A stretch of 11,141 nucleotides of DNA from DASVDK01 sp036562265 [NCBI: Thermodesulfobacteriota bacterium] (GTDB lineage Bacteria > DASVDK01), in contig DATCKS010000506.1 of NCBI GenBank assembly GCA_036562265.1, forward strand, positions 1 through 11,141. Direction: 5' to 3'. The number at the start of each line of letters is the position of its first letter. The stretch's first letter is position 1. Positions 4,948-9,427 of this stretch are shown one piece after another. Below the pieces are notes generated by a model. That model saw only the letters and a list, made by a program, of their open reading frames with translations. It made no database searches and was not told the DNA's origin. A program made the translations under genes and the position numbers.

Positions 4948-5544
4948 CTATCCCGCCCGCCGTCCCTCCGACGGCGCGGGCTCGCGGATGAAGGAGACCT
5001 TGCTTGCCCAGACGGTCCCCGGGTAGCGGTCGAGCAGCTCGTTCCACCCTTCCTTGAGCGCCTCGCCGCGTCCCGTCGCCCGGTAGCGGGCCACCGCGAG
5101 CCAGTAGAGCGCCTCCGGGGCGTAGGGCGAGCTCCCCGCCTCGCCGACGGCGCGCACGCAGGCCGCCTCGGCGTCCGCGTAACGCCGCTCGGCGAACGCC
5201 ACCATCGCCTCGCCGAGCGCCAGCTCGACGAGGAACGCCTCGGGCGCGAAGTAGCCGGTCGAGGCGCGCACCAGGCGGTCGTCGGGGGTCCGGAACTGGA
5301 AGGTCGGGGTCCAGACGGCGCCGAGCGCGCCGGCGACCTCCGACTGCTGCGCGAAGCTGACCTTCACCGGGACCATGCCCGCGAGCGCCTCGCGCACGCG
5401 GGGGTGTGGATACGTCACGGCATCCATCCGGGCGCAGCCGCCTCAGCCAGGGGCGAAGACGTCCACGAAGAGTAGCCGCCGCTCGCGGCGCGCCCGTTCA
5501 CGCGCCTCCTCGAGCGACGCCGCCCAGGCGATCGCATCGGCCAT
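4948..5544 (-). CDS. Candidate selenoprotein: thioredoxin-fold domain (UGGC) plus TPR-like C-terminus
   Basis: One continuous frame of 198 residues with a single in-frame TGA as codon 34. It would be read as FAPG-U-G-G-C-ARM, the exact place of the thioredoxin motif FWAPWCxxC. Both sides of the TGA form one complete thioredoxin fold: strand LLFVDVF (24-30), U34/C37 at the helix start, strand VPVKVSF (about 58-64), cis-proline motif VWTPT with P80, strands FQF and RLVRASTGY. A helical TPR-like region follows at about 110-174 (AFAERRYADAEAACVRAV; EALYWLAVARYRATGRGEAL). There is no signal peptide, so it should be cytoplasmic. The ATG start at 5544 has an ideal GAGGAGG 8 nt upstream. The ATG just after the TGA (5427) has none, so simple reinitiation is unlikely. 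It is probably a thiol/selenol reductase or peroxide-handling enzyme. The main alternative is a pseudogene or a sequencing error for TGC. Confidence 0.78.
5407..5426 (-). promoter_or_regulatory. Candidate bSECIS hairpin downstream of the in-frame UGA
   Basis: In the mRNA a 7-bp stem forms between UGGAUGC (5426-5420) and GUAUCCA (5413-5407), with one G-U pair. It closes a 6-nt loop CGUGAC (5419-5414). The loop starts 24 nt after the UGA and has a G at its second position. As I recall the bacterial SECIS model, the apical loop lies about 16-37 nt after UGA with a G among its first two bases, and this fits. I could not compute the folding energy. Confidence 0.5.
5443..5445 (-). other. In-frame TGA, proposed selenocysteine codon
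   Basis: TGA interrupts the frame between GTC TTC GCC CCT GGC and GGC GGC TGC GCC CGG. It replaces the first Cys of a CGGC motif. The frame is unshifted and high-quality thioredoxin sequence continues directly after it. Ordinary cysteines in the neighbourhood use TGC. Confidence 0.7.
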
Positions 5545-5552
5545 GTCGAGAA

Positions 5553-5559
5553 CCTCCTC
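5553..5559 (-). promoter_or_regulatory. Ribosome binding site that fixes the thioredoxin-fold gene start
   Basis: GAGGAGG lies 8 nt before the ATG at 5544-5542. It is the strongest Shine-Dalgarno in the window. It selects this start over a TTG at 5628 and over the ATG at 5427 downstream of the TGA. Confidence 0.8.
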
Positions 5560-5591: not shown

Positions 5592-5688
5592 CTCTTCCAG
5601 GCTGATCGCCCGCACCCGACGAGGTCAAGCGGCAAACGCCCGCCGCACGGGCGGTTCTCCCGGCAGCAGCAAGGAGGTTGGCGGATTT

Positions 5689-5743
5689 CCAGGGGGTCAG
5701 GCCTTTCCATTTTCCAGGGGGTCAGGCCTTTCCATTTTCCAGG
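5689..5743. repeat. 25-bp tandem repeat, two full copies plus a 5-bp start of a third
   Basis: Two identical 25-bp units (5689-5713 and 5714-5738) begin CCAGGGGGTCAGG and end CCTTTCCATTTT. A third copy breaks off after CCAGG (5739-5743). Just before the array, ATTTCC (5685-5690) resembles the unit junction TTTTCC. The T-runs make it clearly less GC-rich than its surroundings. It lies between the rhomboid stop and the leader of the thioredoxin-fold gene. Similar GGGGTCAGGCCT-type repeats occur as dispersed intergenic elements in some bacterial genomes, but I cannot test that here. Confidence 0.85.
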
Positions 5744-6582: not shown

Positions 6583-6657
6583 GCTGGCGTAGCTCAACGG
6601 TAGAGCACCGGTTTTGTAAACCGTAGGTTGCGGGTTCGAATCCCGCCGCCAGCTCCA
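6583..6657 (+). tRNA. tRNA-Thr, anticodon TGT
   Basis: A full cloverleaf can be folded. The acceptor stem GCTGGCG/CGCCAGC is perfect, the D-stem is GCTC/GAGC, and the anticodon loop TTTGTAA carries TGT. The variable loop is AGGTT, the T-arm GCGGG-TTCGAAT-CCCGC is perfect, the discriminator is T, and the 3' CCA is encoded. The anticodon stem CCGGT/ACCGT has four pairs plus a C-T mismatch at the base (27:43). It decodes ACA, and other Thr codons by wobble. The promoter is at 6518-6546. No U-tract terminator is seen after it. Confidence 0.96.
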
Positions 6658-9058: not shown

Positions 9059-9427
9059 CTAGGGCCGGTAGGCGTAGTTCGGCTGGACGGCCGTGACGTC
9101 CGGCGACGAGAGCCCTCGCGCCCTGACCGCCTCCGGACCGGGGTCTTTCGCGATCCTCAACAGGAAGACGTCGTCGCGCACCCGCCGCAGGCCGGCGACC
9201 TGGTACTCGGCGAAAAGGTCCCGGATGCGCCGCTCGTCGGTGCCGGCGCGGACGGTAACCAGGTACTCCCCGGGGACGCGCTGCCCCTGTCTCCCCATGA
9301 CCGCCGGCTCCCCTGCGGCCGGCCCGCCGGCGGGGCCCGCCGTCTCGGCGCATCCGAGGGCCCCGGCGAGGAGGACGAGGGCGGTCGAGACGGCCAGGCG
9401 CCGCGCCGTGCGTGCGATGCCGCCCAT
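9059..9427 (-). CDS. Lipoprotein consisting of a stand-alone subtilase propeptide / I9-like inhibitor domain
   Basis: A 122-residue exported protein. An N-terminal signal (RTARRLAVSTALVLLAGALGC) ends in a lipobox-like ALGC with C26, so it is probably lipid-anchored, although the -3 residue is Ala rather than Leu. A short Gly/Pro/Ala linker follows (27-50). Residues 52-122 have the pattern of the I9 propeptide-like inhibitor: GEYLVTVRAGTDERRIRDL, then FLLRIA, then DVTAVQPNYAYRP. The same landmarks occur in the propeptide of the neighbouring protease (VPGEILVKF and DVEYVQPNYRYR). The protein ends just where a catalytic domain would begin. The start ATG is 4 nt after the protease stop, so the two are co-expressed. 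Likely role: inhibitor or folding helper of that subtilase. The domain assignment is by pattern, and the function is inferred from homology and context. Confidence 0.8.
   Translation of the reverse strand: MGGIARTARRLAVSTALVLLAGALGCAETAGPAGGPAAGEPAVMGRQGQRVPGEYLVTVRAGTDERRIRDLFAEYQVAGLRRVRDDVFLLRIAKDPGPEAVRARGLSSPDVTAVQPNYAYRP

Follow-up and report, generated by a model that had tools for sequence, protein, structure and literature searches.

The gene and its in-frame TGA

The window, by which we mean the whole 11,141-nucleotide stretch of DNA that was analysed, carries on its minus strand a candidate selenoprotein gene (4948..5544) of 198 codons plus a TAG stop, encoding a UGGC thioredoxin fold followed by TPR-like helices. 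Read from 5544 to 4948, the frame starts with ATG, ends with TAG, and contains one internal TGA and no further stop. This confirms the initial annotation, which had described a single unshifted frame split by one TGA. The TGA is codon 34 (5443..5445, minus strand), which is TGA in 59 of 67 full-length rows of the family and which we read as selenocysteine (Sec). The predicted resolving residue, Cys37 of U-G-G-C (5434..5436, minus strand), is Cys in all 65 Sec-form rows. The active-site motif of the window protein is FAPG-U-GGC, and within VWTPT (residues 77-81) Pro80 sits where the cis-proline is expected, in agreement with the proposal that codon 34 lies in a thioredoxin active site.

A Shine-Dalgarno sequence, AGGAGG (5553..5558, minus strand), is present 8 bases 5' of the first ATG, as had been noted. 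The ATG after the TGA, at codon 40, has as its sole upstream candidate a GAGG 13 bases 5', made from the TGA and the next codon. This ATG and its GAGG fit a reading in which the UGA is a true stop that ends a 33-residue leader peptide, with a separate 159-residue protein starting at codon 40. However, compared with the AGGAGG of the first ATG, this GAGG is a weak signal at a poor spacing. In the AlphaFold model (50 rows; pLDDT 95.3, pTM 0.88) a strand (25-30) precedes the TGA while the active-site helix (35-44) and strands 58-63, 81-85 and 91-96 follow it; the modelled fold needs both parts, so that each half would break the thioredoxin fold, as had been claimed. Moreover, nine of the ten non-TGA relatives have Cys at this position (one has Glu), giving one continuous protein. 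A true stop is thus very improbable.

Four Pfam-supported neighbours in the window, two dehydrogenases, an ABC transporter and a rhomboid protein, end in TGA. TGA thus acts as an ordinary terminator in the rest of the window. For the ABC transporter, none of the matches listed from the two groups searched (154 and 198 genomes) exceeds 43% identity. Upstream of the selenoprotein gene, at 5686-5743, is a 25-base unit, TTTCCAGGGGGTCAGGCCTTTCCAT, in 2.3 perfect tandem copies. A tRNA-Thr(TGT) at 6583-6657 on the plus strand adjoins the rhomboid gene.

Relatives and the residue at codon 34

In one genome-contig scan the first relatives found, L001, L002 and L003, had 31-40% identity to the window protein over nearly its whole length. 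The alignment extends across both sides of the TGA, and the aligned codon is TGA in 3/3. L001 is from a metagenome-assembled genome (MAG) titled Bacillota; L002 and L003 are from MAGs titled Deltaproteobacteria, but labelled Myxococcota in the tree. We then counted family members with a profile built from Sec forms, with Sec entered as Cys, and since it was made from Sec forms this search favours them. Full-length TGA forms, defined as rows with a single TGA that cover almost the whole profile, were found in 54 of 297 genomes of the phylum of L002, its own included. All 55 such genes in these 54 genomes were read, and each has TGA at the aligned codon. Any match to the profile was seen in 116 of the 297 genomes; many of these are partial, mostly covering the thioredoxin domain only, and partial matches were dropped from the family counts, while one short fetched sequence (L063) was left out of all counts. 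The full-length TGA form was present in 2 of 299 genomes of the phylum of L001 (seed genome included), and in its class 9 of 154 genomes have it (L001's own included) out of 11 that match, the remaining two having Cys forms.

Among the 67 full-length rows, from which duplicates and one short paralogue were left out, the 8 without TGA at codon 34 have Cys (7) or Glu (1). The phylum of L002 contains 8 genes of the non-TGA kind (7 Cys, 1 Glu) in 6 of 297 genomes. Counted over all non-TGA homologues, 9/10 have Cys, 1/10 has Glu and none has Trp. The motif in 65 Sec rows is U-I-G-C in 47, U-G-G-C in 12 and another UxGC in 6. The check that the initial annotation called for, on homologues, therefore supports its claim: the UGA is conserved in relatives and Cys replaces it in nearly all other forms. 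We also looked for the random stops that would mark a pseudogene, and found none at the aligned codon in relatives.

In a tree of 75 rows, five changes are needed between TGA and non-TGA forms. The window groups with L118-L120 (96/83 support), on long branches and with the window composition flagged as unusual. For the tree and the third-base analysis described below, L008 and L038, duplicates of L002 and L001, were left out together with L084. The Glu form, L062, has GAG at the Sec codon; it is counted among the 8 non-TGA forms and carries the label Cys in the third-base and tree analyses. Because it has Glu and Ser at its two active-site positions, L062 should be redox-dead.

These comparisons bear on the possibility that this is an ordinary Cys thioredoxin gene whose TGA arose by sequencing error or by a mutation that made it a pseudogene. 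The window sequence is a single contig, which leaves room for such an error. However, this codon is TGA in 58 further rows that come from other genomes; apart from it the frame is conserved and free of stops, and synonymous sites preserve the hairpin described below. We therefore consider error or decay the least probable of the explanations weighed here, and the gene is almost certainly intact despite its internal stop.

Some features of the relatives were observed alongside. Four non-TGA sequences, L059, L060, L061 and L062 (three Cys, one Glu), form a clade with a conserved Gly/Ser-rich C-terminal tail ending in GGGSxGSGAY. Many Sec forms (L003, L011, L012 and others) keep a C-terminal PYRLL tail, which is absent from the window protein and from the rows of the class of L001. 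Judged from its sequence, this tail could possibly be a docking signal. Viral and plasmid collections gave no relative, and a TGA-plus-hairpin pattern had 0 matches there; another pattern run on these collections demanded Cys and so was blind to Sec forms.

A SECIS hairpin and the selenocysteine machinery

Downstream of the TGA the window has a putative SECIS hairpin (5408..5425, minus strand) with a 6-bp stem (5425-5420 / 5413-5408) and the loop CGUGAC (5419-5414), in which the G at 5418 is conserved. The bacterial SECIS model, as given in the parts of PMC13188914 covered, has an apical loop of 3-9 nt, a stem of 4-16 bp, a distance of 16-37 nt from the UGA, and a G at loop position 1 or 2 that usually has G or U after it. 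The window hairpin has this geometry, with a loop of 6 nt, 6 bp, G second and then U, and 23 nt from UGA to loop. A 50-base stretch around the TGA and hairpin (5402..5451, minus strand) is identical to that of L001, the two proteins being about 40% identical.

We found that the 48 bases from the TGA onward align gap-free in 59 Sec rows. In the stem columns (21-26 / 33-38) 92.7% of cells are paired among 57 distinct Sec rows, and two-sided changes occur in 18 cells, at three pairs. None of 500 shuffles reached the observed percentage paired, number of two-sided-change cells or covariation score (0/500 each), although these shuffle tests do not remove kinship among rows. Less striking in the 6-bp stem were the number of pairs with a two-sided change (38/500 shuffles as high) and the further pair types (85/500 as high, not striking). 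The stem variants correspond to different residues, GGAUGC/GUAUCC to Asp-Tyr, GGGUGC/GUACCC to Gly-Tyr and GGAAGC/GUUUCC to Glu-Phe. By sequence comparison, then, the covarying stem is seen to shift residues in step, from Asp-Tyr to Glu-Phe or Gly-Tyr. The 8 non-TGA forms have only 41.7% of stem cells paired, no better than slid versions, and by the same comparison the hairpin is not kept in them.

The loop also appears constrained. Of 59 rows, 57 have complementary bases at loop positions 1 and 4, which flank the conserved G-U. In 49 distinct rows both are third bases of GCN-GTN codons; 47 of these pair, whereas shuffling gives a mean of 31, and 0 of 20,000 shuffles of this subset were as high. 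Among 183 columns, synonymous conservation peaks at the stem-paired third base of Thr44 (0.96, against 0.42 in the remainder of the gene). Values at the other stem third bases are 0.72 for Asp41 and 0.55 for Tyr45, where there are covarying pairs; those in the loop or outside are 0.37 for Ala42, 0.35 for Val43 and 0.31 for Pro46, but 0.77 for Arg39, which lies outside the stem. High third-base conservation is therefore not confined to the stem, as Arg39 is at 0.77 and Tyr45, inside it, is at only 0.55.

The 60-base hairpin region of the window was no more stable than shuffles (z 0.22, in GC-rich DNA). Since this fold energy is not significant, we used comparative evidence for the SECIS. RNAalifold run unaided recovered just half of the stem (3 of 6 pairs), and no Rfam family came near its gathering score. 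A subfamily with the sequence MDAVAYP (L070, L071, L073, L074, L075, L087, L088) has A-C mismatches in the usual stem register. From its sequences it seems to bypass them with a shifted stem, ACGC/GCGU, and a GGUC tetraloop.

We searched the Sec-form genomes for the machinery of Sec insertion. SelB was over the cut-off in 55/57 and in 7/7 further genomes (62/64 together), and SelA in 53/57. Two Sec-form genomes are without SelB, four without SelA and one (G045) without both. tRNA-Sec was over the cut-off in all 10 Sec-form genomes tested (3/3 and 9/9 genomes, the 9 including 2 Cys-form genomes). ARAGORN confirmed it in the first three genomes and called a fourth match tRNA-Ser. The tRNA-Sec cut-off has limited specificity, since 5 of the 14 controls also exceeded it; a stricter E-value left two, E. 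coli and M. jannaschii. Among 14 named genomes used as controls, SelB was found in two and SelA in one. Genomes of the phylum of L002 without a family match have SelB in 14/17 and SelA in 16/17. Sec machinery is thus common in this phylum anyway, and its co-occurrence with the gene discriminates weakly. Six genomes carry non-TGA forms alone; SelA and SelB are both present in three of them and both absent from the other three. In five genomes (G104, G032, G234, G008, G279) two or three SelB genes per genome are over the cut-off, some of them full length. From sequence, the extra copies might represent a specialised additional Sec elongation factor.

UGA is read through as Trp or Cys in other systems, and this precedent is the argument for its standing for another amino acid here, through whole-genome reassignment or near-cognate read-through. 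However, TGA ends the four Pfam-supported neighbours in the window, the SECIS hairpin and the Sec machinery of relatives point to Sec, and at this position the ten non-TGA relatives carry nine Cys and one Glu, never Trp. We give another amino acid hardly any weight. The claim that the UGA is recoded as Sec is borne out by UGA recurring in independent lineages, by Cys in nearly all non-TGA homologues, and by the covarying SECIS and the relatives' Sec machinery.

Fold, proposed activity and known systems

The thioredoxin-fold domain spans about residues 1-112 (5209..5544, minus strand); by structure match it is nearest to DsbD-gamma, with Pro80 as the cis-proline. Pfam matches run across the TGA (Thioredoxin_7, 1.6e-7; Thioredoxin_2, PF13098, 4.8e-6), and PF13098 scores 27.3 bits against a cut-off of 27 in the window protein and is found at E<=0.001 in 50/50 members. 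The top match in a structure search was DsbD-gamma (1uc7, Z 15.6, rmsd 1.7 over 110 residues, 21% identity). The residues W7, G36, C37, W78-T79-P80, G97 and W179 are conserved in 64 or 65 of 65 Sec rows.

TPR-like helices follow at about residues 113-182 (4999..5208, minus strand), continuing the last thioredoxin helix. Helices of the model in the C-terminal part are 101-118, 122-136, 142-157, 160-173 and 178-182. In the window protein TPR_16 scores 15.8 versus 32.7 bits, below the cut-off, as is TPR_6, which 30 of the 50 family members match at E<=0.001. Since Pfam does not by itself establish TPR in the window protein, that reading draws on the relatives and the model. Together these bear out the claim of a TPR-like C-terminus fused to a UxxC thioredoxin domain, and the model predicts, at high confidence, a thioredoxin fold that passes into TPR-like hairpins.

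No signal peptide is evident from a reading of the window protein, so a cytoplasmic location is most likely. In 43 loci (the window, L001, L002 and 40 others; simple ORF calling) no gene cluster recurred in more than six. The most frequent neighbours, by reading, belong to common families (response regulator, ABC ATPase, oxidoreductase), and as no neighbours are conserved we inferred no pathway. By reading, argS precedes three loci of the class of L001.

Our data suggest the following sequence of events. A ribosome reaching the UGA at codon 34 would meet the SECIS hairpin, its loop 23 bases downstream. SelB carrying Sec-tRNA would bind this loop, and Sec would be inserted to give a 198-residue protein. 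Sec34 and Cys37 would then form the UxxC redox pair that opens the active-site helix of a DsbD-gamma-like fold. The product would be a selenol-dependent disulfide (or related) reductase in which Sec attacks the substrate bond and Cys37 resolves it, and the TPR-like helices, joined directly to the fold, would most likely hold a partner or client. For this reading taken jointly (a selenoprotein made by SelB/SECIS Sec insertion, with a UxxC DsbD-gamma-like fold, acting as a cytosolic reductase with TPR docking) we estimate a probability of roughly 0.93. It relies on comparison, namely the recurring UGA, the covarying SECIS and the Sec machinery of relatives; within it the reductase direction, the cytosolic location and the docking role are each probable.

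DsbD-gamma (1uc7, 2fwf) is the nearest fold. It is periplasmic, has CxxC and is part of a membrane protein; in contrast, the window protein has 198 residues, UxxC and no evident membrane part. The full-length DsbD profile gave 19.2 bits versus a cut-off of 330, covering only 459-528 of 574.

CnoX/YbbN is a second comparison, as it shares with the window protein a thioredoxin fold followed by TPR. The protein could accordingly be a Sec chaperedoxin, in which a TPR holdase passes clients to GroEL and the thioredoxin domain protects or reduces thiols. In addition to the shared domain order, E. coli YbbN (3qou) was rank 2 in Foldseek (E 7.4e-7 over 189 columns), and a Caulobacter CnoX with an active CXXC is described in the excerpts of PMC8129009 and PMC6282202 covered. 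However, the two-domain fit to 3qou is poor (rmsd 11.6, TM 0.41), 3qou is not among the 50 matches listed by the Z-scored structure search, and the catalytic domain is nearer to DsbD-gamma. The TPR part is also shorter, 4-5 helices compared with the two five-helix subdomains that the same excerpts (PMC8129009/PMC6282202) give for CnoX, and the window protein differs in having Sec at the first active-site position. We regard this role as rather unlikely. Similarly doubtful, taken as a whole, is a broader statement that would make the family Sec chaperedoxins of at least two, probably three phyla, with UxxC and a cytoplasmic TPR client-holder, Sec being ancestral or of repeated origin and the SECIS driving paired changes at Asp41/Tyr45, where the active-site helix ends. 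As a compact thioredoxin-plus-TPR Sec protein, the window protein could be probed as a Sec counterpart of chaperedoxins.

Thioredoxin-like enzymes with UGA-encoded Sec are already a known kind, and the window adds a member and not a new category. The selenoprotein called thiol:disulfide interchange protein has PF13098 and UxxC (example WP_011366075.1; PMC1794560 Table 3, PMC13188914 Table 1). According to the parts of PMC1794560 and PMC13188914 covered, it has been listed since 2006 and was reported from Syntrophus aciditrophicus, Geobacter metallireducens and G. uraniumreducens; 22 sequences are given in the part of PMC2398784 covered. It is also labelled Trx-like 2, cd02953. Like the window protein it has UxxC, PF13098 and a DsbD-gamma-like domain, and by sequence features the window family may be this selenoprotein. 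In contrast to the window protein with its TPR-like part, its descriptions, in the portions covered, contain no mention of TPR. Neither TPR nor tetratricopeptide is mentioned in the main text of PMC13188914 and PMC9312934; in the portions covered, "tetratricopeptide" is absent from PMC2398784 and PMC1088965 and "TPR" from PMC1914089. A literature search for a Sec thioredoxin combined with TPR returned nothing relevant. The suggestion of a little-described architecture holds only in part: the TPR fusion did not turn up within the literature looked at, but the Sec protein itself may be of a kind listed since 2006.

TsoB (NF045694) and VPGUxxT type 2 (NF041383) selenoproteins are weakly similar to the window protein over the thioredoxin domain and differ from it in architecture and motif. 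On the window protein no NCBIfam model reached its cut-off (TsoB 19 versus 805 bits, VPGUxxT 14.5 versus 275); on the other 49 members, by E-values only, the best was TsoB at 7.6e-18. The family is common (54/297 genomes in one phylum), yet no NCBIfam model is at cut-off on the window protein, and automatic annotation would probably split or drop the gene. It also offers a clean case of an RNA signal that constrains the residues around an active-site helix.

Elsewhere in the window, a small lipoprotein-like ORF without a Pfam match (9059-9427, minus strand) ends in VQPNYAYRP. This end resembles the prodomain of the adjacent subtilase (VQPNYRYR), and going by this likeness the ORF is perhaps a stand-alone protease propeptide.
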